Source: Xanthomonas sacchari (GTDB taxonomy: Bacteria; Pseudomonadota; Gammaproteobacteria; Xanthomonadales; Xanthomonadaceae). Taken from it: a stretch of DNA of 64,000 nt. Positions 1-18,894 of the stretch are shown piece by piece. The stretch lies in contig NZ_CP100647.1 of assembly GCF_024266585.1 (NCBI RefSeq), forward strand, positions 4,197,001 to 4,261,000, in the 5' to 3' direction. The notes under the pieces were generated by a model. The model saw nothing but the letters and a program-made list of their open reading frames with translations. It made no database searches and was not told the DNA's origin. The position numbers and the translations under genes are program-made. Every line of letters begins with the position of its first letter. The first letter of the stretch is position 1.

Positions 1-10
1 GCATGAAGAT

Positions 11-1145: not shown

Positions 1146-1252
1146 GGCAACTCCTCCTGCTGAGCGAACCCGCGGCATGGCCGGGGACGGCCACACAGTG
1201 TAGCGGTGCCGCCCGGCATCGCCCCGCCAGCGGCAGGGCCCCCGCTCTTGCG

Positions 1253-1280: not shown

Positions 1281-1359
1281 GACTGAACACGCCTCGCCTT
1301 GCCGGCCGTCACCCCCTGCACTAGGCTTCCCGTCTTTGGTCGGGGACCCGGGGACGCAG

Positions 1360-2658: not shown

Positions 2659-2719
2659 GCCGGTCGCTGCGTTCGCTATACCGTTTTTCCTTTTTTCAGT
2701 TCCAGTCGAGAAGTAGTAC

Positions 2720-3682
2720 ATGCCTATGAGTTCGGTCATCGTCGTCGGTTCGTTCAATGTCGACCATGTGTGGCGGTGCGAGAATCTGCCCGCAGCGGGG
2801 GCGACCATCGCCGGCCGCTACAGCACCGGCCCCGGCGGCAAGGGCTTCAACCAGGCGGTGGCGGCGGCCCGCGCCGGCGCGCGCACCAGCTTCGTCTGCG
2901 CGCTCGGCGACGATGCCGGCGGCGCGATGGCGCGCGGCCTGGCGGCGCAGGACGGCATCGCCCTGGTCGCCGAGGCCAGCACCGAGCCGACCGGTACCGG
3001 CGGCATCTACGTCGACGGCCACGGCCGCAACACCATCGTCATCGGCGCCGGCGCCAATGCCGCGCTGAGCCTGGACTTCGTGCAGGCGCAGCGCCCGCTG
3101 CTGGGCTCGGCGCGGGTACTGCTGGCGCAGCTGGAGTCGCCGATCGAGACCATCGAGGCCACCCTGGCGCTGGCGCGCGAAGCCGGCCTGACCACGGTGC
3201 TCAACGCCGCCCCGGCCAACGCGCAGACCAGCATCGGCCTGCTCAAGCTGGCCGACGTGCTGACCCCCAACGAGACCGAGTTCGCCGCCCTGCTGGCGCG
3301 TCACGTCGGCGTGCGCGTGGACGCCGACGACGTCGCCGCCACCGATGGCGGCAGCCTGCACGCGCTGTGCCGCAAGCTGCTGCCGGGTGGCACCGTGGTG
3401 GTGACGCTGGGCGCGGTCGGCGCGTTCATCTCGCATCCGGAGGAGCGCCTGCTCGGCGACACCCAGCCCTACTACCGGATCGGCGCCGAAGCCGCGCACA
3501 CCGTGGACACCACCGGTGCCGGCGATGCCTTCAACGGCGCCCTGGTGGCCTCGCTGGCGCAATCGCCGAACGCCACGTTCGCCACCCACGTGCGCTTCGC
3601 CAACCATTACGCGGCGCGCTCCACCGAAGCCGAAGGCGCGGCGGCGTCGATGCCGCGGTTGACCCCGGACAGCGCCGGCTGA
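2720..3682 (+). CDS. PfkB-family carbohydrate kinase, ribokinase-like
   Basis: A 320-residue cytosolic kinase of the ribokinase/PfkB fold. The N-terminal signature GGKGFNQAVA and the C-terminal ATP/catalytic signature DTTGAGDAFNGAL are intact, with catalytic Asp269. The N-terminus VIVVGSFNVD is typical of ribokinases. It lies directly downstream of the nucleoside transporter and is probably co-transcribed. Ribose or a nucleoside is the likely substrate; adenosine kinase or another sugar kinase cannot be excluded from sequence alone. A pyrimidine-rich stretch (TTTTTCCTTTTTT) precedes the start and the ribosome site is weak. Confidence 0.85.
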   Translation: MPMSSVIVVGSFNVDHVWRCENLPAAGATIAGRYSTGPGGKGFNQAVAAARAGARTSFVCALGDDAGGAMARGLAAQDGIALVAEASTEPTGTGGIYVDGHGRNTIVIGAGANAALSLDFVQAQRPLLGSARVLLAQLESPIETIEATLALAREAGLTTVLNAAPANAQTSIGLLKLADVLTPNETEFAALLARHVGVRVDADDVAATDGGSLHALCRKLLPGGTVVVTLGAVGAFISHPEERLLGDTQPYYRIGAEAAHTVDTTGAGDAFNGALVASLAQSPNATFATHVRFANHYAARSTEAEGAAASMPRLTPDSAG

Positions 3683-3771
3683 GGCATCGGCGCCTCCCCC
3701 GATCCAGCGCCGCCGCGCAATCGCGCACCACATCACATTACGTGCCGGGATGCGGCATGCAATGTCCGGCG

Positions 3772-3799
3772 TTGACACAATAATAATTCTCATTAACAT
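3772..3799 (+). promoter_or_regulatory. Fur-controlled promoter of the siderophore receptor
   Basis: A perfect -35 box TTGACA at 3772–3777 is followed after 16 bases by TAACAT (-10, 4 of 6). A Fur-box-like element at 3779–3797, ending TCATTAAC, matches 14 of 19 consensus positions and covers the spacer and -10. Fur with iron would therefore block RNA polymerase, giving expression under iron starvation. The receptor starts 31 bases downstream. Confidence 0.75.
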
Positions 3800-3829
3800 C
3801 CGCAGCCACTTCGTCACCTGGCTGAACCG

Positions 3830-5950
3830 ATGTCCCCACACCCGCTCTCCACCGCGCTCGCCCTGAGCCTGCTCGGCAGCTGTGCCCTGCCCGCCGCCCA
3901 TGCCCAGACGGTGGTCGACCTCGACCGGGTCAGCGTGTCGGCCAGCACCAGCCGCATGCCGGAGTCGGCGGCGGCGCTGCCGAACACCATCACCGTCATC
4001 GACCAGGCGCAACTGCGCCAGCAACTGGCGCTGACCCAGGACCTGTCGCAGGTGCTGGCCAACCTGATCCCCTCGTTCTCGCCCTCGCGGCAGAAGCTGA
4101 CCACCAGCGGCGAGACGCTGCGCGGACGCAAGCCGCTGTACCTGATCGACGGCATCCCGCAGTCCACCCCGCTGCGCGAGGGCGGCCGCGACGGACACAC
4201 CATCGACCCGGCGATGATCGAGCGCATCGAGGTGATCCACGGCGCCAATGCGCTGCAGGGCCTGGGCGCCTCCGGCGGCATCATCAACATCATCACCAAG
4301 CGCGCGCCGCGCCAGGATGGGCAGAGCTTCCAGGACATCGCCGTGGCCGGCAGCAGCGCGCTGCCGCACCGCAGCGACAGTACCGGCGAGCGCGCCTCGT
4401 ATCTGTTCGGCACCCGTCAGGGCGCGTTCGATGCGGTCGCCGGCGTGTCCTATGCGCGCGAAGGCCTCTACTACGACGGCAACGGCCAGGCAGTCGGCGT
4501 GCAGGACATCCAGGGCGACCTGATGGACGCCAGCAGCCACGACCTGTTCGCCAAGCTCGGCTGGAACCTCGATCCGCAGCGCCGGCTGCAACTCAACGCC
4601 AACCGCTACACGCTGCAGGGCGACAACGACTACCTCACCGTTCCCGGCGACATCGCCAGCGGCCGCCCGGCCACCTCGCGGCGCGGCGAGAAGATCACCG
4701 AGGCGCCGCGCAACCGCTCCACCTCGGTCAGCCTGGACTACACCGACAACGCGCTGGCCGGCGGCTACCTGCAAGCGCAGGCGTACTGGGTGGACTTCGC
4801 CGGGCGCTACGGCGGCACCACCTTCGCCAACCTGCTCAACGACGGCCGCAGCGTGCTCGACCAGTCGCAGAACACCTCGCGCAAGGTCGGCGCCAAGACC
4901 AGTTGGTCGCGCGGCGACCTGTTCGGGCTGCCGCTGCGCGCCACGCTCGGCCTGGACCTGGCCAGCGACCGCACTTACCAGGAACTGGTGCGCAGCGGCC
5001 TGAAGTGGGTGCCGGCGACGACCTACCGCTCGCTGTCGCCGTTCGTGCAGGCCGAGTATCGCCTCGCGCCGCAGTGGACGCTCAGCGCCGGCCTGCGCTA
5101 CGAGCGCGGCACGCTGGAGGTGAACGACTTCACCACCATCCCCAGCAACAACGGCGGCCAGTTCGTGCGCGGTGGCAAACCCACCACCACCGAGACCCTG
5201 CCCAACGTGGGCCTGGTCTGGGACGCCACCGAGGCGCTGAAGCTGTACGCGTCCTATTCCGAAGGCTACACCGTGGCCGACATCGGCCGCGTGTTGCGCT
5301 CCATCAACGTGCCGAACCAGCGCGTGGACACCCTGGTGGACCTGCGCCCGGTAATTTCCGACAACCGCGAGATCGGCGCGGACTACGAGGATGGGCGCTG
5401 GCTGATCCACGCCGCCTACTACTGGTCCGATGCCAAGCGTGGCACCCGCCTGGACTACGACCCCGCCACCCAGAGCTATCGCGTGGCGCGCGAGCGCACC
5501 GAGATCCAGGGCTTCGAGGGCACCGCCACCTGGCAGGCCGCCGAAGGCACCCGCCTGGGGGTGGGCTACGCCACCGCCGATGCGCGCTACGACAGCAACG
5601 GCGATGGCCGCGTCGACAGCGACATGCCCGGTGCCAGCGTCAGCCCGGACCGCGTGACCGCGTTCTGGCAGCAGCAGTGGACGCCGGGCATCTCCACGCG
5701 CCTGCAGGGCAGTCGCGCGGTCAGCCGCCGCTTCGACCTGCGCGGCACGCAGGTGGCGCAGTTCGATGGCTACACCACGTTCGACCTGCAGACCAGCATC
5801 GCGCTGCCGCGGGGACAACTGAGCGTGGGCGTGGAGAACCTGTTCGATCGCCAGTACCTGAGCTATTACGCGCAGACCACGCCGCGCAACGATACCTACA
5901 CCGCCGGTCGCGGGCGGGTGCTGACGGTCGGCTGGAACGTGCGCTTCTGA
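3830..5950 (+). CDS. TonB-dependent siderophore receptor, IutA-like
   Basis: A 706-residue outer-membrane receptor that imports a ferric siderophore using TonB energy. A signal peptide ends near residue 25 (AAHAQ). The plug domain (about 30–155) carries RGRKPLYLIDGIP, IDPAMIERIEVIHGANALQG and GGIINIITKR, and the remainder is beta-barrel ending in an aromatic-rich strand (VGWNVRF). The plug resembles IutA/PvuA-type receptors for carboxylate or hydroxamate siderophores; the exact ligand cannot be told. No siderophore biosynthesis genes are nearby, so it may take up foreign siderophores. It stands alone behind a Fur-type promoter. Confidence 0.9.
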   Translation: MSPHPLSTALALSLLGSCALPAAHAQTVVDLDRVSVSASTSRMPESAAALPNTITVIDQAQLRQQLALTQDLSQVLANLIPSFSPSRQKLTTSGETLRGRKPLYLIDGIPQSTPLREGGRDGHTIDPAMIERIEVIHGANALQGLGASGGIINIITKRAPRQDGQSFQDIAVAGSSALPHRSDSTGERASYLFGTRQGAFDAVAGVSYAREGLYYDGNGQAVGVQDIQGDLMDASSHDLFAKLGWNLDPQRRLQLNANRYTLQGDNDYLTVPGDIASGRPATSRRGEKITEAPRNRSTSVSLDYTDNALAGGYLQAQAYWVDFAGRYGGTTFANLLNDGRSVLDQSQNTSRKVGAKTSWSRGDLFGLPLRATLGLDLASDRTYQELVRSGLKWVPATTYRSLSPFVQAEYRLAPQWTLSAGLRYERGTLEVNDFTTIPSNNGGQFVRGGKPTTTETLPNVGLVWDATEALKLYASYSEGYTVADIGRVLRSINVPNQRVDTLVDLRPVISDNREIGADYEDGRWLIHAAYYWSDAKRGTRLDYDPATQSYRVARERTEIQGFEGTATWQAAEGTRLGVGYATADARYDSNGDGRVDSDMPGASVSPDRVTAFWQQQWTPGISTRLQGSRAVSRRFDLRGTQVAQFDGYTTFDLQTSIALPRGQLSVGVENLFDRQYLSYYAQTTPRNDTYTAGRGRVLTVGWNVRF

Positions 5951-6547
5951 GGCGCCGGCTCGGCCAGGGCCGCATCGGAAGCACCCGGCCATGTCTCTGG
6001 CGGCCCGAGGCAACCCCGCCGGCCGCCTGGTCACGCTGAGGGCGCACGCACCGCCACCGATCCGCGACGGCAGCGGCACAGGTTCCGCGCGATACAAACG
6101 GATCCGCTGAACCGCACATGCCCCCGCGCCCGCGGCGCGGGCGATGTCCTCGCCCGCGCGCCGCCGCGCCGGCCTGCCGACCGCGCCGCGCCGCGCTGTC
6201 GTCACGTGGCCCTTGTCGCGTCTCGCGCACCGGCGGGACGCACAGGCACGCATCGCCAACACGCGCTGCGGCCTGCATCACGCACGCGCCGTGTCCCTCC
6301 ACACCTCCGCAGCGAGGCGCCGGCCTCGCTCGCGCAGGGCATGACGCGTGCGCCGGCCGTTACGCAGCGCAGCGCCGTCGATTTCCGTAAACACCGACGC
6401 GCAACGTGCGGCCGTTCGCATTCGTGGTCCGCGCACGCTTGCTAGATTCGCCGCCGCTTCGGCAACGCCGGTTCGCCTGGTCGCATCGCGCGACCGCGTG
6501 CGCGTGCGCGGCCATGCATCCCTCCCCCCAAGAGATGGATTCCCCCG
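5951..6547. other. 597-base gap without a recognisable gene
   Basis: GC-rich sequence between the receptor and the GH98 gene. Several frames are open but none has codon use, a ribosome site or motifs that convince. The only structure I see is a perfect 10-bp hairpin at 6135–6159 (GCGCGGGCGA, 5-base loop) with no T-tract, which may end receptor transcription by a factor-dependent route. Confidence 0.5.
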
Positions 6548-8923
6548 ATGAAGACGCAGCGAGAATGGAACAAATGCGCCGTGCTGGGCATATGCTTGAG
6601 CCTGCTGTTGAGCGCATGCGGCGGTGACAACGACGACCGCAGCGCCTCGACCGCGCAGCAGGGCGCAGCCGCCCCCATTCCCACGGCGTGGTCGGCGACG
6701 TCGCGCGCGCAGTCACCGGCCACTGCACCGCAGACCGACGCCACCACCGCCGACGCGGGCGACGGCGGCGACAACGACAGCGTCGCCTTGCGCCGTCCGC
6801 TGTCGCCGAGCCAGCCGATGTTCCTGATCCATGCGGACACCTGGAATTCGGCCGATCCGCAGAAGATCATCGACCTGATCCCGGCGGACCTGCGCCCGTA
6901 CGCGGTGTTGCTGATTTCCCTGTCGATCAACCATCAGGGCGCCACCGGCAACCAGTGCAACTGGCTGCAGGTCGAGAACGGCGTGGAAACCGCGCGGTCG
7001 TGGATGAAGACCGCGGCCGCCAACGGCATCTGGGCGATGATCCAGCCATCCAGCGGCGGCTTCAGCCACTTTCCGGACTACGCGCCGGATGCGGATCTGG
7101 AATCGACCGTCTACGGCGAGTTCTTCCGCGACTATCCCAACTTCATCGGCTTCAACTACGCCGAGCAGTTCTGGGGCTTCGACCAACCCTGCTCGGGTTC
7201 GGCAGCGCAGCGCTGGGAGCACTGGTCCAACCTGCTCAAACTCACCAACAAGTATGGCGGCTATCTGACGGTCAGCTTCACCGGCGGCTTCTGGGGGGCG
7301 AACATCAACCCGCTGGCGATGGTCAAGCGCAACGAACGCCTGCGCACCGCGTTCGGCGCCTATGCCAAGAACTTCATCATCGAAGAGAAGTTCACCAGCA
7401 ACTACGGCTTCCACGACATCGAGAGCGTGAGCCTGGGCATGTACCTGTCCGGCTTCGCCGGCCACTACGGCATCCGCCCCGACCGCACCGGCTGGTATAG
7501 CAGCGACAACAGCGACTATCCGGTCCAGGCCGGCTCGCCGCACCTGATCGAACATCTGGCCTTCACCGGCGAGACCGTGTTCGACGGCCCGGAACAGATC
7601 CGGCTGGACGCGGTGCACACCCTGCCGAACGCGACCACCGCCGACGGCTACAGCAGCCGGCGCTGGGAGTTCTACCCGCATTTCCGCAACATCCAGCTGG
7701 ACATCTACCGCAAGATCCTGGACGGCACGCTGCGCATCCTCAACCGCCAGGAGGTGATCGACCGCTCCAAGGTCGTGATCGTCAACGACACCACCACCGG
7801 CGACGACAGGAACCTGTACTCCTCGCCGGAAAGCCTGTTCTCCGGGTTGTACCTGCTCGACGGCGATGGCACCTACCTCAACCAGCACAGCTGGTACAAG
7901 AAGACCGGGCGCTACCCGGCCATTCCGACCGTGTGGCAGCTGACCGACGCGACCGCGCGCTCGTTCAAGGTGCAGATCGCCAAGACCGGCTACGCGGCGC
8001 GCTGGCCGACCCTGGACGCCAAGCTCGCCGAACTCAATGCGCTGTTCCCGCAGGAGTACAGCGGCGACATCTATGCCGGGCGCCAGGACAACACCTGGGT
8101 GACCTACAACCCCTCCAAGGCCAACCAGAACGCGAGCGGCACCATTCCGCTCAAGTACAACAGTTGCGCCGCGGTCAGCGTGAACTACGCGCCCTACACC
8201 AGCGGGGTGATCAAGGAGTTCGCGGACACGCTGTCGATCTACCTGACCAACTTCGACTCCCCGGACGGGGCGCTGAAGACCGACACGATCGACATCGACG
8301 GCGCCAGCACCACGCCGACCTTCAGCTTCGTCGATCGCGGCGACCACCAACCCAGTACGGTGACCAGCACCGCGACCGCCGACGGACTGACCCTGCGCGT
8401 GGCCCACAACGGGCCGCTGGACATCACCGTGCACTGCACCGGCAACGCCAGCGGGGGACGCCTGAGCGGGGCGCCCGAGGCGACCGTGCAGGCGCCGTCG
8501 GCACCGCCCGCATATACCGGCGTGCAGCAGTACGAGGCGGAGAACTTCGATTTCCGCAACATCCGCAGCCAGGTCGAGAACGGCGTCTCCGGCCCGATAC
8601 GCAACTACCAGGGCCTGGGCTACGTGGATTTCGGCACCGGCGCTGCCGCCAGCATCCGCACCGACGTCCGCGTCGCCAGCGCCGGCACCTATCAGGTGCA
8701 GACCCGCTACTCGACCGCCGGCGCGAGCGTGGGCAACGTCGATCTCTACGTCAACGGAGTCAAGGTCGGTACGCCGCTGTTCGCGCAGACCGCCTCGGCC
8801 AGCGACTGGGCGACGCTGCAGCAGCCGGTCACGCTCAATGCCGGCAGCAACCGCATCGAGTTCCGTGCCAGCGCGACACGGCCGGCATCGCTGTACCTGG
8901 ACAACATCCGCATCTCGCAATGA
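6548..8923 (+). CDS. Secreted lipoprotein glycoside hydrolase, GH98 with C-terminal CBM
   Basis: A 791-residue exported enzyme. Residues 1–24 are a lipoprotein signal with lipobox LLSAC (Cys24), followed by a low-complexity Asp/Ala/Thr linker to about residue 85. The central region is GH98-like (MFLIHADTW, FIGFNYAEQFWGFD, FIIEEKF); Glu206 and Glu279/280 are the best candidates for catalytic acids, by position only. Residues about 660–791 form a CBM6/35-type carbohydrate-binding module opening with YEAENF. GH98 members act as endo-beta-galactosidases or endoxylanases; in a plant-associated bacterium xylan is the more likely target, as an inference. It is monocistronic, with a palindrome directly after the stop. 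Confidence 0.75.
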   Translation: MKTQREWNKCAVLGICLSLLLSACGGDNDDRSASTAQQGAAAPIPTAWSATSRAQSPATAPQTDATTADAGDGGDNDSVALRRPLSPSQPMFLIHADTWNSADPQKIIDLIPADLRPYAVLLISLSINHQGATGNQCNWLQVENGVETARSWMKTAAANGIWAMIQPSSGGFSHFPDYAPDADLESTVYGEFFRDYPNFIGFNYAEQFWGFDQPCSGSAAQRWEHWSNLLKLTNKYGGYLTVSFTGGFWGANINPLAMVKRNERLRTAFGAYAKNFIIEEKFTSNYGFHDIESVSLGMYLSGFAGHYGIRPDRTGWYSSDNSDYPVQAGSPHLIEHLAFTGETVFDGPEQIRLDAVHTLPNATTADGYSSRRWEFYPHFRNIQLDIYRKILDGTLRILNRQEVIDRSKVVIVNDTTTGDDRNLYSSPESLFSGLYLLDGDGTYLNQHSWYKKTGRYPAIPTVWQLTDATARSFKVQIAKTGYAARWPTLDAKLAELNALFPQEYSGDIYAGRQDNTWVTYNPSKANQNASGTIPLKYNSCAAVSVNYAPYTSGVIKEFADTLSIYLTNFDSPDGALKTDTIDIDGASTTPTFSFVDRGDHQPSTVTSTATADGLTLRVAHNGPLDITVHCTGNASGGRLSGAPEATVQAPSAPPAYTGVQQYEAENFDFRNIRSQVENGVSGPIRNYQGLGYVDFGTGAAASIRTDVRVASAGTYQVQTRYSTAGASVGNVDLYVNGVKVGTPLFAQTASASDWATLQQPVTLNAGSNRIEFRASATRPASLYLDNIRISQ

Positions 8924-8930
8924 GCCCGAC

Positions 8931-8956
8931 GTGCCGCTGTCGCGCGACAGCGGCAC
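8931..8956. terminator. 26-base perfect palindrome after the GH98 gene
   Basis: Starting 7 bases after the stop, GTGCCGCTGTCG and its exact complement form a 26-base perfect palindrome, an extremely stable hairpin. No T-run follows, so it is either a weak intrinsic terminator or a 3'-end stabiliser. Confidence 0.5.
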
Positions 8957-9093
8957 GCGCAGCGGCCGGCCGATGACGCCGACCGTGGGGACCGCGTTCG
9001 CGGCGGCAGGCAGCCGCCGCAGCGGCCGCGCCGCGGACGGCCTCCCGCGGGGCGCCCCCCGGCGGACGATGTCCCGCCAGCCGCCAGCCGCCA

Positions 9094-9123
9094 GACGCCT
9101 CCCGGGAGCGCTCGGGAGGCGTC
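9094..9123. terminator. 11-bp hairpin before dusB
   Basis: GACGCCTCCCG and its exact complement flank an 8-base loop. The hairpin lies between the GH98 palindrome and dusB and would insulate the two transcripts. There is no T-tract on either strand. Confidence 0.45.
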
Positions 9124-9151
9124 GCACAAGCCGCCCCGCTACACTAGCGGC

Positions 9152-10150
9152 ATGCGCATCGGCCCCTACACGATCGAACCGAAGGTGATCCTGGCGCCCA
9201 TGGCCGGGGTCACCGACAAGCCGTTCCGGCTGCTGTGCAAGCGCCTGGGCGCCGGCCTGGCGGTGTCGGAGATGACCATCTCCGACCCGCGCTTCTGGCA
9301 GACCCGCAAGTCGCTGCAGCGCATGGACCATGCCGGCGAGCCGGACCCGGTCAGCGTGCAGATCGCCGGCACCGAACCGCAGCAACTGGCCGAGGCCGCG
9401 CGCTACAACGCCGACCACGGCGCGCAACTGATCGACATCAACATGGGCTGCCCGGCGAAGAAGGTGTGCAACGCCTGGGCCGGTTCGGCGCTGATGCGCG
9501 ACGAGGCGCTGGTGGCGCGCATCCTCACTGCGGTGGTGAAGGCCTCGCCGGTCCCGGTGACGCTGAAGATCCGCACCGGCTGGGACTGCGACCACCGCAA
9601 TGGCCCGGTCATCGCGCGCATCGCCGAGGACTGCGGCATCGCCGCGCTGGCGGTGCACGGGCGCACCCGCGACCAGCACTACAGCGGCCAGGCCGAGTAC
9701 GCCACCATCGCCCAGATCAAGGCGATGCTGCGCATCCCGGTAATCGCCAATGGCGACATCGACTCGCCGCAGAAGGCGGCGCAGGTGCTGGCCGCGACCG
9801 GCGCCGACGCGGTGATGGTCGGGCGCGCGGCGCAGGGCCGGCCGTGGATCTTCGGCGAGATCGCGCACTACCTGGCCACCGGCGAGCTACGTCCGGCGCC
9901 GTCGCTGGCGTGCGTGCGCGACACCCTGCTCGGCCACCTGCAGGCGCTGCACGATTTCTACGGCGAGGCGCAGGGCGTGCGCATCGCCCGCAAGCACCTG
10001 GGCTGGTACGCCAAGGACCGGCCCGAGAACGCCGCGTTCCGCGCCGTGGTCAACCGCGCCGAGAGCGCGCAGGCGCAACTGGCGCTGACCGCCGAGTACT
10101 TCGACGCGCTGATCGCCGGCGTGCCGCCGGCCCTGTCCGCCGCCGCCTGA
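9152..10150 (+). CDS. dusB: tRNA-dihydrouridine synthase B
   Basis: A 332-residue FMN enzyme that reduces uridine to dihydrouridine in tRNA D-loops. Diagnostic pieces are LAPMAGVTDKPFR at the N-terminus, INMGCPAKKVC with catalytic Cys100, KIRTGWD, VHGRTRDQ, IANGDID and MVGRAAQGRPW at the FMN phosphate site. The length is normal. In many gamma-proteobacteria dusB precedes fis; here a methyltransferase follows after 24 bases instead. No ribosome site is visible, and a TACACT box lies only six bases before the ATG, so the transcript may be leaderless. Confidence 0.95.
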   Translation: MRIGPYTIEPKVILAPMAGVTDKPFRLLCKRLGAGLAVSEMTISDPRFWQTRKSLQRMDHAGEPDPVSVQIAGTEPQQLAEAARYNADHGAQLIDINMGCPAKKVCNAWAGSALMRDEALVARILTAVVKASPVPVTLKIRTGWDCDHRNGPVIARIAEDCGIAALAVHGRTRDQHYSGQAEYATIAQIKAMLRIPVIANGDIDSPQKAAQVLAATGADAVMVGRAAQGRPWIFGEIAHYLATGELRPAPSLACVRDTLLGHLQALHDFYGEAQGVRIARKHLGWYAKDRPENAAFRAVVNRAESAQAQLALTAEYFDALIAGVPPALSAAA

Positions 10151-10174
10151 CGTCATTCTCCCCGGAGCACCGCC

Positions 10175-11002
10175 ATGGGTTCGTCTGCCGACACCCCGAC
10201 CTATCTGCACGGCTATTCCGAAACCGAACAGGCACGCCTGCTGAAACAGGCGCGCTTGCTGGAAGCCACCCTGTTCAACCAGATCGACTACACCGGCGCG
10301 CGGCGCCTGCTGGAAGTGGGCAGCGGCGTCGGTGCGCAGACCGAAGTGCTGCTGCGGCGCTTCCCGGAGCTGCATGTCACCGGCATCGACCTGAGCGAGG
10401 CGCAGCTGCAGGCCGCGCGCGACAACCTGCAGCGCATGCCCTGGTGCCAGGACCGCTACACCCTGCAGCAGGCCGACGCCGGCGACCTGCCGTTCCAGCC
10501 GCGCAGCTTCGATGCCGCGTTCCTGTGCTGGGTGCTGGAGCACGTGCCGTCGCCGGCGCGCGTGCTCAGCGAAGTGCGACGGGTGCTGGCGCCGGGATCG
10601 CCGGTGTACGTGACCGAGGTGATGAACGCCTCGTTCCTGCTGCACCCGTACTCGCCGAACGTGTGGCGCTACTGGATGGCGTTCAACGACTTCCAGTATG
10701 ACCACGGCGGCGATCCCTTCGTCGGTGCCAAGCTCGGCAACCTGCTGCTGGCCGGCGGCTATCGCGACGTCAGCACCGAGATCAAGACCCTGCACCTGGA
10801 CAACCGCGAACCGGCACGGCGCAAGACCATGATCGGGTTCTGGGAAGAGTTGCTGCTGTCGGCGGCCGAACGGCTGCTGCAGGCCGGCGCGGTGGACGCG
10901 GAGACCGTGGCCGGCATGCGCCGGGAAATGGCCCAGGTGCAGAGCGACCCGGACGCGGTGTTCTTCTATTCGTTCGTGCAGGCGCACGCGACGGTGTATT
11001 GA
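10175..11002 (+). CDS. Class I SAM-dependent methyltransferase
   Basis: A 275-residue cytosolic methyltransferase of the Rossmann type. Motif I is LLEVGSGVGAQT (around residues 48–59), followed by an acidic strand end TGIDLSEAQL and the motif IV region FDAAFLCWVLEHVP. The C-terminal third is less typical and may hold substrate specificity. The substrate is unknown. It follows dusB closely and is probably in the same transcript, but nothing shows that it modifies tRNA. Confidence 0.8.
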   Translation: MGSSADTPTYLHGYSETEQARLLKQARLLEATLFNQIDYTGARRLLEVGSGVGAQTEVLLRRFPELHVTGIDLSEAQLQAARDNLQRMPWCQDRYTLQQADAGDLPFQPRSFDAAFLCWVLEHVPSPARVLSEVRRVLAPGSPVYVTEVMNASFLLHPYSPNVWRYWMAFNDFQYDHGGDPFVGAKLGNLLLAGGYRDVSTEIKTLHLDNREPARRKTMIGFWEELLLSAAERLLQAGAVDAETVAGMRREMAQVQSDPDAVFFYSFVQAHATVY

Positions 11003-11018
11003 GTCGCTTTCATGGCGC

Positions 11019-11225
11019 TCACCGCGTCGCTGGCGCTTGCGCGCTCACCGGCGCGGGCGATGCCGGCTCTGTCCACAGATCCGCCGCCACATCCGCGCCA
11101 GTGCTGCGCGGACGTGCCCGCGTGCTACCAGCGCCCGATACGCTGCCTGCAGCTACCCCAGGGCGATTGCTTGCCAGCCGTTGCCCTGCTTCCGCGCCAC
11201 CGCGACGTTGAAGTTGTCGCACGCA
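11019..11225 (-). pseudogene. Decayed 3' end of the membrane hydrolase gene
   Basis: This stretch matches the 3' end of the intact gene at 12771–13844, including the stop position and the peptide WTEPAS.APVSAQ (compare WTEPASHAPVSAQ). An upstream part, VAVARKQGNGW (compare FAVARQQGDGW), is in another frame, so the copy has at least one frameshift as well as a large 5' truncation. It is not expected to make a functional protein and marks the left end of a tandem duplication. Confidence 0.75.
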
Positions 11226-11341
11226 ACTACTTTGCTGGCGATGCGGAGAAGGCTTGACTCAGGCGCCTCCAGAAGCCCGGATCGGCGCTGCGCCTGCACA
11301 CCAGATAGCGGCGACATGTCCGCATTCTCGGTGTGTCTGAT

Positions 11342-11377
11342 AAACAAAGGCGTCCCCCAGCGGGAACGCCTTTGTTT
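11342..11377. terminator. Bidirectional intrinsic terminator
   Basis: AAACAAAGGCGT and its exact complement flank a 12-base loop. On the minus strand the stem ends in a T-rich TTTGTTTAT, giving a good terminator for the leftward secreted-protein gene at 11420. The A-rich/T-rich arms also make it plausible for rightward transcription. Confidence 0.8.
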
Positions 11378-11419
11378 ACTTCATCTGCACTGCCCGAAGC
11401 AAGAGCACGGGGAAGATTT

Positions 11420-12091
11420 TTATTTTGCGTAGAGTGGGAAATATCCTTCCGAAGCGAGCTCTTGATAGACTGCATATGATACGGCAGCCCCAATTCCACC
11501 GCTGCCAGAGAAAAAGGAACCGATCGAATCGGACGCTGAGACAATCAACCAGCCCTTTTTCGGGTCCGGTTTCGATGTGGTGCTTACCGCAAATTTGGAC
11601 CAATAGCGCGCGGAGTGTCTCACCACGCTCAACGCACCCAGAACCAGCGCGCCATTCTTCGACCTGGCATCGAGCCGCGCGATGCCTTCCTGTTCCAATT
11701 CCTCGAATTGCACCGCCGCCGCGTCCAGGCCCTCGGCGTTCTGCACAATCTGGTCCACTCGCACGATGAACGAGAACTCGTAGGCACTGAGCTGCTGACG
11801 CAGTTCGGCCAGGTTTTCGGTCATCGGGCGGAGCGGATCGATGGCATCGATCATGGGCTGCTGCGTGGCGATAAAGCGCTCCAGCGGCATGCCGGGGTTG
11901 TAGCCGCACTTCTCGACCAGCACGGCCAGGGCCTCGTCGGGCGAGGCGTTGGTGTCCATCAGGCAGCCCAGGTACATGTTGTGCTGGATGCCTACCTGAT
12001 CGAGCGGATTCTCGGCCGCCAGCACGGGCGCGGTACCGAAGGCACTACCGACCAGGAGGGTGGCGGTCGCGGCAAAGAGCTTTTTGTTCAT
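11420..12091 (-). CDS. Secreted protein of unknown function, paralogue A
   Basis: A 223-residue exported protein I do not recognise. MNKKLFAATATLLVGSAFGTAPVLAA is a clear signal peptide. The mature part has conserved blocks GIQHNMYLGCLMD, EKCGY.PGMPLERF and SAYEFSFI, shared with the second copy at 13996–14664, and two cysteines that could pair in the periplasm. From about residue 175 the two copies diverge completely; this one ends in a Gly/Ser-rich hydrophobic stretch (SFFSGSGGIGAAVSYAV). A terminator follows. The two genes share upstream sequence (TTCAGGCTAGGCAG), so regulation may be common. Confidence 0.75.
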   Translation of the reverse strand: MNKKLFAATATLLVGSAFGTAPVLAAENPLDQVGIQHNMYLGCLMDTNASPDEALAVLVEKCGYNPGMPLERFIATQQPMIDAIDPLRPMTENLAELRQQLSAYEFSFIVRVDQIVQNAEGLDAAAVQFEELEQEGIARLDARSKNGALVLGALSVVRHSARYWSKFAVSTTSKPDPKKGWLIVSASDSIGSFFSGSGGIGAAVSYAVYQELASEGYFPLYAK

Positions 12092-12567
12092 CAACGTTCT
12101 CATGTAATGGATGGAGGGTGGCCCAGATCTTCCGACGTTCCCGCGGAGGACCCAGGCGAGGCGACCACAGCGCATCGGCACACGGCGCGATGCGACGGTT
12201 TCAGGCTAGGCAGATCTGCGGCGACGCACGAGGACGAAACCGGGTCGAGACGGGAACGAACCGGGTCGAATTGGCGAATCGATGGCACCGTCACCACATC
12301 GCGCAAACGCGGCCCCTGGCTTCCGGCGGACACTCCATTATTGAGGAATCAATGCCTTGCGCCGATTCGTTCCCGATCCATCGCCGCGGATGCGCTGGAA
12401 TCGCGGCGTCGCTGCTACGCGGCTGTTGCGGGCCTTGTGGTTAGGAAGCTCACCTACCCACCAGCGTCTCGCCGCCCATGCCGTGCTGGCCGCACCGCGG
12501 CCGCCGGCGCGCATTCCATCGCCGCGGCCCTTCGAGCTTGCCGTTAGCCGTCTACAGCCGAGACACC
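12092..12567. other. Shared upstream region of the duplicated locus
   Basis: No gene. The stretch resembles 14665–15025: both hold GCATCGGCACAC, TTCAGGCTAGGCAG and GGATGCGCTGG in the same order. It is therefore the promoter/intergenic part of the left duplicated unit, between a leftward secreted-protein gene and a rightward small-protein remnant. Confidence 0.6.
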
Positions 12568-12738
12568 CCACCCTGCCGCCGGACTGCTGCCTGGAGCGGG
12601 ATCACAGGCCGGAGGTGGTGACGAAGTTTGATTTCAACCGGGAATCACCGCGGCAGCTGACGGCCACGTGCGGGGCAGCCGACCACGAGACGCCTAACTC
12701 GAATGCCCTGGCAACCATTGCCGCTTGTTGCGACTTGG
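12568..12738 (+). pseudogene. Remnant of the small periplasmic protein gene
   Basis: Translation gives LPPDCCLERDHRPEVV, KFDF and NALATIAACC, clearly matching the intact gene at 15026–15412 (LPPDWCLEQDQEPEVV, KFDF, NTLNTIAAYC). The frame is still open here, but the ATG and recognisable signal peptide are gone and the last third is missing: the homology stops about 33 bases before the 3' end of the neighbouring hydrolase gene. It is a truncated copy. Confidence 0.8.
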
Positions 12739-12770
12739 CTTCGGCAGCGCCACGCTCCATTGCGCCGCGC

Positions 12771-13844
12771 TCAACGCATCGCGGCAGGTACCTGCGCGCT
12801 CACCGGCGCGTGCGATGCCGGTTCGGTCCAGATCCGTTGCCACATCCGCGCCAGCGCCGCACCAATCTGCCCACGTGCCACCGGCGCCCGGTACGCCGCC
12901 TGCATCTGCCGCGGCGGCATCGCCGCCCAGCCGTCGCCCTGCTGTCGCGCCACGGCGAAGTTGAAGTTGTAGTCCGGTTCCAGGCCCATGCGCAGGTCGC
13001 TGAGCACCAGTTCGCCATCCTTGACCTGCGCGCGCATGAAGCCGCGGTTGAACCACGTCAGGCGCTGCACCGCGGGCAGGTCGCGCACCTGCGCCAGCGC
13101 CTGGGTGTTGGAGGGACAGCCCTGGAAGCGCATCGGCCCGTGGTCGGCGACCAACGAGCGCTCGCCGATCACGTAGCCGCTCGGGGTCATCGCCACCACC
13201 CGCCACAGCAGCGTGTTGAACGGCATCGGCACCGAGAAGCGCGGCGCCTGCGCCAGGCCCATCGCCGCCAGCGCACGGTCGGCCTCGCGGTCGACCAGAT
13301 GCTTGGCCAGCAGCGACCAGCCCAGGTAGGTGCTGCTCAGCAGCAGCCCGACCAGCAAGGCCTGCTGCGCCACGCGGCGCGCGCGGGCGAACCAGGCGAT
13401 GGCGCAGGCCAGCAGCAGCCACAGCGTGTAGACGGGATCGATGATGAACACGCTCGACCACATCGTCGGCGGCGGCCGCAGCGGCCACCACAGCTGCGTG
13501 CCGTAGACAGTGAACGCATCCAGCAACGGATGGGTGATCAGCGCCAGTTGGATCGCCCAGAACCAGCGCCGCGGCGCCTCGGCGACCCGCCCGTGGCCGA
13601 AGCGGCGGAACAGCCACCAGACCAGCCAGCCGAGCAGCGGCAGCACGAACAACGAATGGCTGAAACTGCGATGCACTGTCATCAGCGTGACCGGATCGCG
13701 GGTCAGCGGCAGCAGGATCAGCGAATCGAGGTCGGGCACGGTGCCGAGTGCGGCACCGGCGAGCAGTGCCGCACGCCGATGCGCGGCCGGCGCGATGGCC
13801 GCAGCAATGGCGCCGCCGAGCACGATCTGGGTAAGGGAATCCAT
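12771..13844 (-). CDS. YdjM-like membrane-bound metal-dependent hydrolase
   Basis: A 357-residue inner-membrane protein. MDSLTQIVLGGAIAAAI, GTVPDLDSL, HRSFSHSL and ITHPLLDAFT are the His/Asp metal-site signatures of the YdjM (PF04307) family, spread among several hydrophobic helices in residues 1–190. The C-terminal 160 residues look soluble. E. coli YdjM is LexA-controlled, but I see no LexA box here. The substrate is unknown. It sits between the two secreted paralogues, with a degraded copy of its 3' end at 11019. Confidence 0.8.
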   Translation of the reverse strand: MDSLTQIVLGGAIAAAIAPAAHRRAALLAGAALGTVPDLDSLILLPLTRDPVTLMTVHRSFSHSLFVLPLLGWLVWWLFRRFGHGRVAEAPRRWFWAIQLALITHPLLDAFTVYGTQLWWPLRPPPTMWSSVFIIDPVYTLWLLLACAIAWFARARRVAQQALLVGLLLSSTYLGWSLLAKHLVDREADRALAAMGLAQAPRFSVPMPFNTLLWRVVAMTPSGYVIGERSLVADHGPMRFQGCPSNTQALAQVRDLPAVQRLTWFNRGFMRAQVKDGELVLSDLRMGLEPDYNFNFAVARQQGDGWAAMPPRQMQAAYRAPVARGQIGAALARMWQRIWTEPASHAPVSAQVPAAMR

Positions 13845-13943
13845 CGGCCGATGCTAGCAGCGATGCGGGGATGCATGCGTGGCGGGAGCGGTGTCGATAA
13901 CGTCGGTCAGACCGGGACCCTCGCTCACGAACAGGGAGTAAAG

Positions 13944-13968
13944 AAAGGCATCCCGCCGGGATGCCCTT
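13944..13968 (-). terminator. Intrinsic terminator of secreted paralogue B
   Basis: GGCATCCC and GGGATGCC pair around a three-base loop, extended by an A/T pair region. On the minus strand the stem is followed by TTTCTTTAC. It lies 28 bases after the stop of the gene at 13996, in the same relative place as the terminator after paralogue A. Confidence 0.75.
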
Positions 13969-13995
13969 CCCTTCCGCTGTGCTTGGCTTGGATCA

Positions 13996-14664
13996 CTAAT
14001 CTTTGAATACAGCGGCATGAACGGACTGAGACTGAGAGGACGCCTCTCCGACGTCGAAGGACTCGACGAAGCCACCTACGTCGGCAAAGACAACAGACAG
14101 CCATTTCCAGAACCCGCCCCTCTTCGCCGTGGTGCCGCCGCTGGCAGCGAACTCACCGCTTTCGGCCGCGCGTTTTGACCAGTAGCGATTGGAATGCCGG
14201 GCGACGCTCAGCCCACCCAGGATCAACGCACCGCTATCCGACTTGGCATCGAGCCGATCGATGGCTTCCCGCTCCAGTGCTTCCAACTGCCGCGCCGCAA
14301 CATCCATGTCCTCGGCGTTCTCGGCGATCTTGTCCATCCGTTCAATGAACGAGAATTCGTATGCACTGAAAACCTTGCGCATTCCTGCCAGGTTTTCGCT
14401 CAACGGCCGTGACGGGTCGTACGCATCGATGGTGGGCTGATGCAGAGCGACGAACCTTTCCAGCGGCATGCCCGGGTCGTAGCCGCACTTTTCGACCACA
14501 ACCACCAAGGAATCCTTGGCAGGTGCATTCAGGTCCATCAGGCAGCCCAGGTACATGTTGTGCTGGATACCTGCATGATCCATCGGGTTCTCAGCCGCCA
14601 GCGCAGGGGCGCCAACGACACTGCCCGCCAGCAGGGCGGTTGCGACAAGGAACTTCTTCTTCAT
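13996..14664 (-). CDS. Secreted protein of unknown function, paralogue B
   Basis: A 222-residue exported protein, not recognised. The signal peptide is MKKKFLVATALLAGSVVGAPALAA. It shares with paralogue A the blocks GIQHNMYLGCLMD, EKCGYDPGMPLERF, SAYEFSFIERMDK and LARLDAKS-like/RHSNRYWSK regions up to about residue 170. The last 50 residues (Gly/Ser/Trp-rich, then FADVGGFVESF) are unlike A. Two conserved cysteines suggest an extracytoplasmic disulfide. The leftward hydrolase gene lies downstream with a terminator between. Confidence 0.75.
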   Translation of the reverse strand: MKKKFLVATALLAGSVVGAPALAAENPMDHAGIQHNMYLGCLMDLNAPAKDSLVVVVEKCGYDPGMPLERFVALHQPTIDAYDPSRPLSENLAGMRKVFSAYEFSFIERMDKIAENAEDMDVAARQLEALEREAIDRLDAKSDSGALILGGLSVARHSNRYWSKRAAESGEFAASGGTTAKRGGFWKWLSVVFADVGGFVESFDVGEASSQSQSVHAAVFKD

Positions 14665-15025
14665 GAGCGTTCTCTCGCTATATGGAAGGGATTGGAGATG
14701 GCTGGGTGCATAGATCGCCCCGGGGGATGGCCACCGCCGCATCGGCACACGCTGCGATCCGGCGATTTCAGGCTAGGCAGGGCGTCGGCGCAGCACGAGG
14801 GCGAAGCCGGGCCGCCCGCGGAACGAACCGGGCGGGATTGGCGAGGCAGAGTGCGGCGGCAGGCCTGCACCGGGCGCGCGCTGCACCTGTGGCGCGAATG
14901 CCACCATCCTGGAAATCAATGCGTTAGGCGGATTTGTTCCCGGTCTATACCCGTGGATGCGCTGGCATCCGCCGCGGCGCCGCTCGTAGGCTGCTGGTCC
15001 CTTCTCTGCGTATTGCGAGATTCCG
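14665..15025. other. Divergent promoter region of the right duplicated unit
   Basis: No gene seen. It lies between the leftward paralogue B and the rightward small periplasmic protein, and carries GCATCGGCACAC, TTCAGGCTAGGCAG and GGATGCGCTGGCATCC, matching 12092–12567. Conservation between the two diverged units makes these blocks candidate regulatory elements. Confidence 0.55.
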
Positions 15026-15412
15026 ATGCCTGCCTACCGCTCCATCTTCCACACCACACTCGTCGCGGTGCTGCTGACCCTTCCCCTGATCGCCCACGGC
15101 CACGACACCTTGCCACCGGACTGGTGCCTGGAGCAGGACCAGGAACCGGAGGTCGTGGTGAAGTTCGATTTCGACGGCGAGCAATTGCGGCAGACGATGG
15201 ACAAGTGCGGGGTGGTCGATAGCCACGAGCCCTACACGAATACGCTGAACACCATCGCCGCCTATTGCGAGGTGGTGGCGCCGTCGCGATCGGCCAAGCC
15301 CATCGTGCTCGGCCCGACGACGTTCCTGGCCCGCGACCACCACAGCAGCTATCGCATGGAACACGGCTTGAAAGGCGCGTGCGTGGTCTGCCCGGCCAAG
15401 CGCGGGCGCTGA
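15026..15412 (+). CDS. Small cysteine-containing periplasmic protein
   Basis: A 128-residue protein with a signal peptide (cleavage near residue 25, LIAHGHD) and a mature domain opening LPPDWCLEQDQEPEVVV. Five cysteines (DWC, DKC, AYC, GAC, VCP) suggest disulfides, and the end is basic (CPAKRGR). I do not recognise the family. A truncated copy lies at 12568, so this gene is part of the duplicated unit with the hydrolase and the secreted protein. Confidence 0.7.
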   Translation: MPAYRSIFHTTLVAVLLTLPLIAHGHDTLPPDWCLEQDQEPEVVVKFDFDGEQLRQTMDKCGVVDSHEPYTNTLNTIAAYCEVVAPSRSAKPIVLGPTTFLARDHHSSYRMEHGLKGACVVCPAKRGR

Positions 15413-15478
15413 CGCACCGTGCAGGCGCGCGCGCTCCTCAATGCGGCCAACGATCGCCAGCAGGAATGCCGGGCACGC

Positions 15479-17602
15479 TCAGCCGAGCGCGTCCCGGCGG
15501 GTGTAGGCCAGCACCGTGTCGATCCTGGACTGCAAGGCGGCGCGCGCCTCTGCCGAGATTCCGTCGCACTGCGCGAGCACGAAATAGGCCGAGCGCAGCA
15601 CGTCCCGCCAGCGCGGGTTGCGTGGCAACTTGGCGACCGCCAGGTAGCGCTCCATCGCCCGCGCGCGCAGGCGGCCGTCGTCGATGTTCACGCGCCAGAT
15701 CCGGCTGCGCTCGGCCAGTTCCAGCCGGCCGGTCGCCGTGGCGCGCTCCCAGGTGTCGATGACCGCCAGCATCAAGTCGACCAGCGCGCGCCGGAACGCG
15801 TCGCGCAACGCAGGCGCGGCGGCCTCCTCGTGCACGTCCTCGGCCTGCGCGGTGTCCGACGCCGCGTCACGGTCGCGTTCCTGCAGGCCGAGGACGACCA
15901 GGCCATCGCCGCCCCGCCAGGGCGCGAGGGTGGCGGCGAGCGGCGTGCCGTGCCGCGCCACGACCTCGAGGCGCTGCGCGGTGCTGTCCTCCATCCGCTC
16001 CAGCGCCGCCTGCAACGCCGGGCGGTCGCTCTCGGCAATGCAGGCGAACACCGCCTGCCCCACCGGGTCGGCGGCGTCCGCCCCGCCGAGCAGCAGGCGG
16101 CCGGCACGATTGGTGGCCAGCACCTGACCGTCGGCATCGAGCAGGCACAGCGCATCCTCGCGGCTGTCGAGCAGCGTCTGCAGCAGGCTGCGATCCTCGG
16201 CCAGCGCGTCCGCCTCGCGCCGATAGCGCGCGAGTTGCTCCTCGTGGCGGACCTGGCGCGCGGCTTGCAGCACGCGTTCGCGCTGCCGGCGACGCTGCAG
16301 CAACAGCCAGCCGCCGAGCACGGCGGCGACGCCGGATACCAGCGCCAGCCACAGCAGCAGCGTGCGTTGACGCAGCTGCGCCTTGCGCAGACGGTTCTCG
16401 CTCTGCAAGGCGTCGATGGTGCGCTGCTTCTCGGCGGTGTCGAAGCGGATGCGCAGCCAGTCCAGCTGGCGATCGTGCTGCGCGCGCACCAGCGCGGCGG
16501 CTTCCGCATTCGCGCGCCGCAGCGTGGCGATGGCTGCCACCGTATCGCCACTGGTTTCCTGCAGCCGCGCCAGCTCCTCCAGCAATGGCACCCGCACCGG
16601 ATCGCCGCCAGCGGTGGCCGCCAGCGCCGCGCGCAGGCGTGCCGCGGCAGCAGCGGCATTGCCTTCGAGCCGGGCGGTTCGCGCCAGTTGCAACTGCAGC
16701 GCAGACGGCAACGGCAGCGCCCATGCCTCGGCCAGGGCCAGCGCACTGGAGCTCCAGCGTTGCGCCTGCGCCACATCGCCAAGTGCCAGGGCCGCGCGGA
16801 TCAGGCCGTCATGCACCCGCAGTTCGTACACCCGGCGTCCCTGCGCGCGGTACACGGCCAGGGCCTCCCGTAACCAGGCCAGCGCCTGCTGCGTGTCGCC
16901 GCTGTCCAGCGCCAGCTCGGCCATGGTTTCCTGCACGTGCGCGGCCTCGATGGCGTCGCCCTGCGCGCGGTTGGCGGCGAGCGCGTCGCGGTAGTAGCGC
17001 ATCGCCGTGGCCGGCTCGCGCAATTCGCGATACACGTCGGCGATATTGGTCAGCACGGACGCCGACACCGCGCCGCGGGCGCGCTGCAGGTCGAGGCTGA
17101 GCATCAGGTGCCGCAGGGCATCGCGAAAATCGCCGAGACGGCGCAGCGCCGCGCCGACATTGTTCAGATCGCGCGCCTCGCCTGCGCGATCGCCCCGCGA
17201 CCGGGACAGCGCCACCGCGCACTCGAAGCGTTCGAGCGCCTGCGGAATGCGTTCGCGACGGAAGTCGAGAATGCCGCGGCGGCGGGTGAGTTCGTAGCGC
17301 AAGCGGGTATCGCCGGCATCGCCGATGTTGGACGCGGCGCAGTCCAGCGCCTGTTCGGCAGCGTCGAGGCGACCGCCATCGAGCTGTTGCTTGGCACGCG
17401 CGAACAATGCCTCGACCCGCGCAGCGCCCGCCGCATGCGGCGTCGACACGCCAGCCTGCTGCACGCACAGCAGCGGATCGGGAAGCGGACGCGGCGCCGC
17501 GGGCTCCGCGCAGCCATAGACCGTGTTCTGCGCGATCGAGGCCGCGCTCGCGGCGAGCAGGACACCCAGGCAGGCCAATCGCAGGCATGCCCGCGATCGC
17601 AT
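15479..17602 (-). CDS. TPR/PAS membrane sensor protein
   Basis: A 707-residue protein. A signal peptide or first membrane segment (residues 1–25) leads into a periplasmic domain of TPR-like repeats (about 60–400; for example ALERFECAVALSRSRGD, AMRYYRDALAANRAQGD). A membrane helix (about 413–436) is followed by a short coiled coil and a PAS-like domain (about 455–590, DALCLLDADGQVLATNRAGR). The C-terminal domain has ERSRIWRVNIDDGRLRARAM and KLPRNPRWRDVLRSAYFVL, seen in Xanthomonas TPR sensor proteins. No kinase, GGDEF or HTH is visible, so the output is unknown. I chose the ATG that begins the signal peptide; an upstream extension in frame is unlikely. Confidence 0.7.
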   Translation of the reverse strand: MRSRACLRLACLGVLLAASAASIAQNTVYGCAEPAAPRPLPDPLLCVQQAGVSTPHAAGAARVEALFARAKQQLDGGRLDAAEQALDCAASNIGDAGDTRLRYELTRRRGILDFRRERIPQALERFECAVALSRSRGDRAGEARDLNNVGAALRRLGDFRDALRHLMLSLDLQRARGAVSASVLTNIADVYRELREPATAMRYYRDALAANRAQGDAIEAAHVQETMAELALDSGDTQQALAWLREALAVYRAQGRRVYELRVHDGLIRAALALGDVAQAQRWSSSALALAEAWALPLPSALQLQLARTARLEGNAAAAAARLRAALAATAGGDPVRVPLLEELARLQETSGDTVAAIATLRRANAEAAALVRAQHDRQLDWLRIRFDTAEKQRTIDALQSENRLRKAQLRQRTLLLWLALVSGVAAVLGGWLLLQRRRQRERVLQAARQVRHEEQLARYRREADALAEDRSLLQTLLDSREDALCLLDADGQVLATNRAGRLLLGGADAADPVGQAVFACIAESDRPALQAALERMEDSTAQRLEVVARHGTPLAATLAPWRGGDGLVVLGLQERDRDAASDTAQAEDVHEEAAAPALRDAFRRALVDLMLAVIDTWERATATGRLELAERSRIWRVNIDDGRLRARAMERYLAVAKLPRNPRWRDVLRSAYFVLAQCDGISAEARAALQSRIDTVLAYTRRDALG

Positions 17603-18075
17603 GCCTGCCGCCGTGGCCTGCGCCAGGACGGGCTCGCCGGAAACGGCGAACCCGTCCAAGCCGAGCCACGTCCCCACCGATCTGCGCGACCGGCCGCACA
17701 ACGCCTTCCCTGGTTTCACGGTCTCCACGACTCCAGAACTGATCGGGATGCGGCGCACGCGCGCCACAGCGACATGGATCAGCGCCACGCCCGGACGCGA
17801 ACGTGGGTTCCTGCCTGGGCATGCGGCGCCGACGCACCGCAGTAGACCCGATGCCACGCGAGCCGGGCAAGCGCGCGCGGAGGCGATGCACACCCCATAC
17901 GGGCCATCGTGGAATGGCGGTCACGCAGGGTTCTACGCTTCCGTCCAGGGCAGGTGCGGCGGCGCCGCGGCCGGGCCGAGCGCGGCGGGGACAACGGCAC
18001 GGCGCGCGCAGGCGCGGCAGCAGTCGACGGCACCAACATGCCGGGCCGTGCAGCGCCGCCCGGCGATCGCCGGCC
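17603..18075. other. 473-base gap without a recognisable gene
   Basis: GC-rich sequence upstream of the TPR/PAS gene and downstream of the phosphoesterase. Open frames exist on both strands, but none has a convincing start, ribosome site or motif. It presumably holds the TPR/PAS promoter. Confidence 0.4.
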
Positions 18076-18894
18076 TCAGGCTGCCCGCGGCCAGGCGCTC
18101 TCCTGCACCAGCCGCAGGCGCGGCGGCAGTTCGCGCAGCACCTCGCCACGGTGCGAGAGCAGGCGTAGCGTACCGTCGGCGTCCTCGGCGAGCGCAGTCA
18201 GGCTTTCCACCCAATCGCCGTCGTTGGCGTAGACCAGGCCGTCGCGTTCGAACAGCCCGGCGCGGTGCACGTGGCCGCAGATCACCCCGTCCAGGCCGCG
18301 GCGGCGCGCATCGTCCAGGCCGGCGGCGACGAAGCGTTCGATGTAGCGCTCGGCCGCGCCGCTCTGCCGCTTCAGGTAATCGGCCAGCGACCAATAGCGC
18401 ATGCCCAGGCGGCGGCGCACGCGGTTGGTCAGCTGGTTGCCGGTGAGGATGCGGTAGTACAGCCAGTCGCCGAACTTCTCCTGCAGGCCGCCGAACTGGG
18501 TCACGCTGTCGTAGTCGTCGCCGTGCACCACCAGCAGCCGGCGCCCGTCGGCGGTGGCGTGCACCGCGCGCCGGCGCACCTGCATCGCCGGCAACGCCAG
18601 CCCGCAGAAGCGGCGGATCGGCCGGTCGTGGTTGCCGGGCACGTAGATCAGTTCGGTGCCGCCGCGGGCCAGCGCGTGCAGCGCATCGACCACGCGCTGG
18701 TGCGCCGCGCTCCACACCGCGCGGCGCTGCGCCATCCACCAGAAGTCGACGATGTCGCCGACCAGGTACAGCTGTTCGCAGCGCAGGCCGCCGAGGAAGT
18801 CGGCCAATTCGCGCGCATGGCAATGCGGTGCGCCCAGGTGCACGTCGGAGACGAACACCGCGCGGCGCGGCGACAGGCTGCTGACCGGATTCAT
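18076..18894 (-). CDS. LpxH-like UDP-2,3-diacylglucosamine diphosphatase / metallophosphoesterase
   Basis: A 272-residue calcineurin-like phosphoesterase. All metal-site motifs are present: SDVHLG, GDIVDFW, GNHD, VHGDD and GHVH. The pattern with DFWW and the YYRILTGNQL insertion fits the LpxH2-type group that cleaves UDP-diacylglucosamine or related lipids, at the membrane surface. Its ATG overlaps the stop of the upstream acyltransferase as ATGA, so the two are translationally coupled and probably act on the same membrane lipids. It may be a paralogue of a separate true lpxH; I cannot tell. Confidence 0.75.
   Translation of the reverse strand: MNPVSSLSPRRAVFVSDVHLGAPHCHARELADFLGGLRCEQLYLVGDIVDFWWMAQRRAVWSAAHQRVVDALHALARGGTELIYVPGNHDRPIRRFCGLALPAMQVRRRAVHATADGRRLLVVHGDDYDSVTQFGGLQEKFGDWLYYRILTGNQLTNRVRRRLGMRYWSLADYLKRQSGAAERYIERFVAAGLDDARRRGLDGVICGHVHRAGLFERDGLVYANDGDWVESLTALAEDADGTLRLLSHRGEVLRELPPRLRLVQESAWPRAA

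Follow-up and report, generated by a model that had tools for sequence, protein, structure and literature searches.

We analysed a 64,000-nucleotide stretch of the Xanthomonas sacchari genome (the window; contig NZ_CP100647.1, positions 4,197,001 to 4,261,000), which carries a tandemly duplicated locus for exported proteins. The locus contains genes for two related secreted proteins, SECL and SECR (together SEC) in the left and right units, a small exported protein (SMALL), a hydrolase and the regulator-like protein TPRPAS. TPRPAS and SMALL form a recurrent cassette, TPRPAS ends in a DNA-binding domain with the fold of that of ChiS, and conserved direct repeats precede both SMALL and the SEC genes. 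The features are as follows, in window coordinates; G and L numbers are our handles for comparison genomes and loci.

11038-11217, minus strand: frameshifted hydrolase 3'-end stub of the left unit (codons ~292-354), found by blastn, breakpoint common to G012 and G019
11340-11379, minus strand: terminator-like hairpin behind SECL (-30.4 kcal/mol, z -7.5)
11420-12091, minus strand: SECL, intact left secreted-protein gene, 223 residues
12235-12266, minus strand: SEC-type repeat element preceding SECL, with 1 mismatch to the pattern, also found by the matrix trained on SMALL promoters
12365-12384, plus strand: SMALL-type repeat element retained ahead of the dead copy of SMALL, with 2 mismatches
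12564-12738, plus strand: SMALL remnant without head or tail, by comparison with intact SMALL
12771-13844, minus strand: intact YdjM-family hydrolase (PF04307, by Pfam), 357 residues, a backbone gene that we judge a bystander
13935-13975, minus strand: terminator-like hairpin behind SECR (-24.9 kcal/mol, z -4.4)
13996-14664, minus strand: SECR, right secreted-protein gene, 222 residues; modelled as all-helical, with a variable two-helix hairpin at the C terminus
14802-14833, minus strand: SEC-type repeat element preceding SECR, with 2 mismatches, SMALL-trained matrix score 9.0
14930-14951, plus strand: SMALL-type repeat element made up of two 11-bp direct repeats, which begins 96 bp before the start of SMALL
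15026-15412, plus strand: SMALL, predicted exported protein of 128 residues with a mature N-terminal His, HH..Y and five invariant Cys including CxxC
15479-17602, minus strand: TPRPAS, 707 residues (TPR, predicted membrane span, PAS, ChiS-family DNA-binding domain), in convergent orientation to SMALL

A preliminary description of this locus had proposed that the order hydrolase, secreted protein, small protein is duplicated in tandem, and a blastn comparison of 11003-12770 with 12771-15478 bore this out. Three collinear blocks in a common order join the units at 71-81% identity, covering the hydrolase 3' end (11038-11217 with 12793-12970, 81%), the secreted-protein gene with its upstream region (11594-12425 with 14173-14996, 71%) and the small gene (12574-12733 with 15111-15270, 72%); the first two blocks were also recovered by a genome-wide search, and the reversed left segment, used as a control, gave no blastn match to the right unit. 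As described, all three right-unit genes are intact, and in the left unit SECL is intact, with its own terminator-like hairpin and conserved promoter elements, beside a hydrolase stub that is spread over two frames. The left SMALL copy had been called headless, which is correct for the lost signal peptide but incomplete, as the tail is lost as well; in G019 the left copy has kept its head and lost its tail. The idea of a decayed left copy likewise holds for the stub and the remnant themselves, but because a stub start near codon 292 recurs in G012 and G019, the truncation looks like one old, shared breakpoint and not like gradual decay in this genome. G008 carries a broken version of the stub and G006 a weak match only, and no stub was found in G003 or G004 at the threshold used. 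The duplication itself is an old one.

The gene that the preliminary description overlooked lies just beyond the part it covered, at 15479-17602. Pfam finds TPR and PAS parts in TPRPAS, and the DNA-binding domain is C-terminal (15482-15823), ends at the stop codon and has a helix-sheet-helix fold like PDB entry 7kpo. Four of the five positions that correspond to ChiS R1068, R1074, K1078, R1090 and R1092 hold Arg or Lys in 25/25 aligned rows. A single hydropathy peak (residues 404-427 of a 698-residue TPRPAS fragment) is followed by RRRQR. No histidine kinase or receiver domain was found by Pfam, so that TPRPAS is not counted as a ChiS orthologue, and NCBIfam entries named as histidine kinases hit its TPR and PAS parts at scores well under their cut-offs.

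In the 10 SEC-bearing genomes of the genus and in Luteimonas aquatica, the block from LpxH to the hydrolase consists of TPRPAS, SMALL on the opposite strand and one or two SEC genes, and outside the genus the homologues of SMALL and TPRPAS are arranged convergently. We searched 297 genomes of the family with profiles of the TPRPAS C-terminal domain (A4) and of SMALL (A5). The regulator domain was present in 44 genomes and SMALL in 43, all of them within the 44; G546 has the domain without a SMALL match. Full-size SEC occurs in 26 genomes (28 match, with the fragments in G007 and G009 excluded from the count), every one regulator-positive (hypergeometric p 6.5e-26, relatedness ignored), and no full-size SEC without the regulator was found among the 297. 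At the level of genes, a convergent SMALL lies no more than 1 kb from 66 of the 73 regulator hits, and 68 of the 74 SMALL hits are paired.

The proteins encoded beside the cassette vary. We surveyed cargo by a heuristic of signal-like start, orientation divergent from SMALL and codon bias, which 69 cassettes entered; L197 and four SMALL hits with E above 1e-8 were left out. The divergent cargo was SEC-like in 17 cassettes, of a YYGSAW/ARIG type in 15, and of smaller families, each seen in 2-4 cassettes, in others, and 19 cassettes yielded no candidate; single linkage may chain families, and cluster 4 holds regulator paralogues, cluster 6 the hydrolase and cluster 8 what is likely an artefact. 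These counts support a cassette that would keep regulator and SMALL while swapping cargo, with rough family borders. At least two regulator genes together with SMALL genes share one contig in G635, G613, G539 and G031. Arrays of regulator and SMALL genes with differing secreted proteins are seen in L184 (G635, 1-14001) and L228 (G613, 4328-18882), and one cargo type, with a YMDDED-like motif and Asn runs, occurs in both L184 and L183. In L234, a 684-residue cargo candidate divergent from the SMALL gene at 501-914 is what we take to be a large secreted protease.

The promoters share a repeat element. A Gibbs sampler given 19 SMALL promoters of other genera (L178, L180 and L197 omitted as near-duplicates or short) returned two 11-bp direct repeats, approximately RATTNRTTCCC-GNTTTRTTCCC, with 441 bits in 15 restarts versus 256-278 in six shuffled sets given 6 restarts; at an equal 15 restarts each, the values were 446 bits versus 263-272 in ten shuffled sets. 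Relative to the SMALL domain, the sites are 101-144 bases upstream in 18/19 promoters and at -206 in one, and the element starts 95-96 bases before intact SMALL in the 10 genus genomes and 95 bases before it in L. aquatica. Among 42 SMALL promoters at 32 further loci, some in genomes that had also supplied training loci, 36 carry the element at p<0.05 and 31 at p<=0.01 by first-order Markov shuffles; the six that fail are four weak SMALL hits (E 4e-9 or worse), L229 664 and L228 18403. Scores of at least 12 were reached upstream of SMALL in 31/42 cases and downstream in 2/41.

Within the window the matrix scores at least 14 at two sites only, the SMALL and SECL promoters, and none of five control genes carries the element at p<0.05. 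Genome-wide, the SEC-type pattern at up to 3 mismatches matches the two SEC promoters and nothing else (control 0), and the SMALL-type pattern at up to 2 mismatches matches the live and dead SMALL promoters alone; at 3 mismatches it matches nine further places, versus three control matches in all. A locus in G008 (L112, 7816-13492) holds four SEC genes, three of which have an upstream SEC-type element, and one SEC gene there lies directly behind another without an element.

We consider it probable that the TPRPAS-SMALL-SEC locus is a transmembrane-transcription-regulator cassette, situated between lpxH and the hydrolase, in which TPRPAS controls SMALL and the secreted proteins. The inner membrane would anchor TPRPAS, with the TPR part predicted to lie outside and the PAS and DNA-binding domains inside. 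We infer that TPRPAS most likely binds the 11-bp direct-repeat arrays of the divergent SEC-SMALL promoter region, and the conservation of these repeats is indirect evidence for sequence-specific DNA binding. SMALL is most likely its periplasmic partner, as the chitin-binding protein is for ChiS, and is perhaps metal-loaded through its N-terminal His, though metal sensing is speculative. SEC would be the exported output, its N-terminal helical domain conserved and its C-terminal helical hairpin changing faster, and the left unit, a tandem copy in which only SEC and the promoter elements were kept, would supply a second regulated output gene.

Several observations weigh against this interpretation. 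The position of ChiS R1068 is Asp or Glu in 25/25 rows, although that residue is called poorly conserved in the accessible text of the ChiS paper (PMC8092284; PMC11856585 is also cited for ChiS). For TPR topology and signal peptides, inspection by eye and hydropathy were the sole basis. Unpaired hits amount to 7/73 for the regulator and 6/74 for SMALL, G007 and G009, two genus genomes without the regulator, carry SEC fragments, and the genomes are related, so that the counts are not independent. The SECR promoter scores just 9.0 with the SMALL-trained matrix. Fits of that matrix to cargo promoters are weaker in general. In a scan that took the cargo strand of intergenic regions whose other strand had given training sites (L178, L180 and L194 omitted; p again by first-order Markov shuffles), 7/14 non-SEC cargo genes passed at p<0.05 and 5/14 at p<=0.01, and 4/6 SEC genes beside the cassette in other genera and 8/15 SEC genes without an adjacent cassette passed at p<0.05.

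The repeats could also be bound by another regulator, for example of a two-component system, with TPRPAS acting elsewhere. Direct repeats of 11 bp are typical of OmpR/PhoB-type regulators too, which fits such a reading. However, the repeats follow regulator-SMALL cassettes across many genera and cargo types, and the restriction of full-size SEC to regulator-positive genomes among the 297 also speaks for TPRPAS; we regard an unrelated regulator as unlikely.

SMALL itself had no sequence match in Pfam or PDB. In 27/27 rows a His directly follows the Ala or Gly of a signal-peptidase-like site (cleavage placed by eye), and C34, C61, C81, H105, H106, C119 and C122 are also invariant. According to the accessible text of PMC12537917, His is the first mature residue in 2.6% of signal-peptide-cleaved proteins; because it is so infrequent there, its constancy in SMALL suggests a function, most simply metal binding as a working hypothesis. 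The SEC proteins have a signal-like start and an ENPxDxxGIxHNxYLxC core with invariant C41 and C60. Their model is all-helical (predicted local distance difference test, pLDDT, 88.9), without a significant structural match, and the variable C-terminal ~40 residues form its helical hairpin. These results support the earlier view of an exported system without a database family, and the model allows the doubtful suggestion that SEC might be a membrane-active secreted protein.

A toxin-immunity pair, with SEC as the secreted toxin and SMALL as its periplasmic immunity protein, would agree with the adjacency and predicted export of both, and with a SEC C-terminus that is variable and, in many members outside the genus, Gly/Ala-rich. 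It would also agree with the substitution rates (omega, dN/dS): in three split comparisons of SECL orthologues, omega was 0.16-0.24 for the N-terminal 162-residue part and 0.41-0.92 for the C-terminal part. Other split pairs are less clear, with 0.26 (N-part) and 0.38 (C-part) between the paralogues SECL and SECR, a comparison that the preliminary description had called for, 0.73 and 0.57 for G013a-G014a at very low divergence, and 0.28 (N-part) for SECR-G012R, where the C-part is undefined by saturation. A cognate immunity protein for each toxin is not what the genomes contain, since every genome of the genus carries a single intact SMALL, with 92-97% identity in the four closest, versus 1-4 SEC genes. 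Moreover, 17/43 SMALL genomes lack full-size SEC, SMALL adjoins other cargo families, and in the left unit SMALL died and SEC stayed. We therefore think a toxin-immunity pair very improbable.

The preliminary description had tied the exported system functionally to the YdjM-like membrane hydrolase. The window hydrolase is a clear PF04307 member (E 1.8e-30, Pfam). All 10 genus genomes with SEC, like L. aquatica, have the hydrolase next to the SEC locus, and the duplicated unit took its 3' end along. The distribution of the hydrolase does not follow SEC: matches occur in 36/60 relatives and in 18/20 genus genomes (those in G010 and G017 broken or partial), versus full-size SEC in 10/20, and among 21 SEC-bearing stretches scanned outside the genus the hydrolase is present in one, that of L. 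aquatica. In G018, G005, G011, G007 and G009 the LpxH-hydrolase-DusA backbone is continuous without SEC, SMALL or TPRPAS, with a methyltransferase gene (MT) between hydrolase and DusA in all of these but G011, and the region upstream of the hydrolase carries no repeat element (p 0.35). We judge the hydrolase a bystander whose adjacency to SEC probably reflects synteny, and a functional tie scarcely credible. The gene is in pieces in G010 (L106, 7791-8760) and reduced to a fragment in G017 (L108, 7524-7640). Away from the hydrolase locus, short SEC fragments in G007 (C1:3440083-3440223) and G009 (C12:34945-35073) are possible remains of lost copies.

The dead left-unit neighbours of SECL might suggest that a recent duplication left it behind as a neutral relic, but this can be dismissed almost entirely: its orthologues, 8 rows in 7 species, group together apart from the remaining SEC rows (clade support 100/100), omega is 0.30-0.46 in eight comparisons among them, and its promoter element is nearer to the pattern than that of SECR (1 vs 2 mismatches), so that the relic reading is wrong unless the clade arose artefactually, for instance through gene conversion. 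The selective retention of SECL that had been proposed is thus upheld.

Elsewhere in the window, a 549-codon open frame (12357-14006, plus strand) runs antisense to the hydrolase and crosses the SMALL remnant, and is probably a GC-rich artefact. At 6548-8923 (plus strand), adjoining dusA, lies a gene for a 791-residue lipoprotein-like secreted protein, with a C terminus that we assume may be carbohydrate-binding.

The locus illustrates how adjacency can mislead, as the apparent hydrolase link is one of synteny and the likely partner lay one gene outside the earlier finding. A broader proposal, which we offer tentatively and would not ourselves bet on, is a widespread Xanthomonadales platform in which metal- or redox-loaded SMALL gates a membrane-bound ChiS-type regulator of swappable exports (SEC, YYGSAW-type, GCCRC-type, MDDED-type and others), some acting on neighbouring cells, with cassettes multiplying in tandem and swapping cargo behind one promoter. 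If metal sensing proved true, periplasmic chemistry would be linked, through a regulator in the membrane, to the release of a range of secreted proteins throughout a large bacterial group of soils and plants.

Among known systems, the YdjM family (PF04307) includes the window hydrolase as a member, which stands outside the cassette. SMALL resembles the N-terminal-His exported metalloproteins in the accessible text of PMC12537917 (histidine brace, CopC, LPMO, DUF4198, anglerases) in its invariant first mature His and in a further invariant His pair (HH); it differs in its five invariant Cys and its lack of a Pfam or PDB match, and metal binding by SMALL is hypothetical. TPRPAS resembles ChiS of Vibrio cholerae (PDB 7kpo; PMC8092284, PMC11856585) in its C-terminal helix-sheet-helix DNA-binding domain, its PAS domain, its predicted membrane anchor and a probable periplasmic protein partner. 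It differs in having a TPR part with no histidine kinase or receiver domain found, in a partner without a match to known families, and in putative targets that are secreted proteins and not chitin genes. Its domain combination is that of the TPR/PAS proteins with a ChiS-family DNA-binding domain that the legend to Fig. 5 of PMC8092284 lists. In the accessible text of that paper these regulators figure as architectures alone, whereas we can now propose for one group of them a near-constant partner, a candidate operator and candidate targets.

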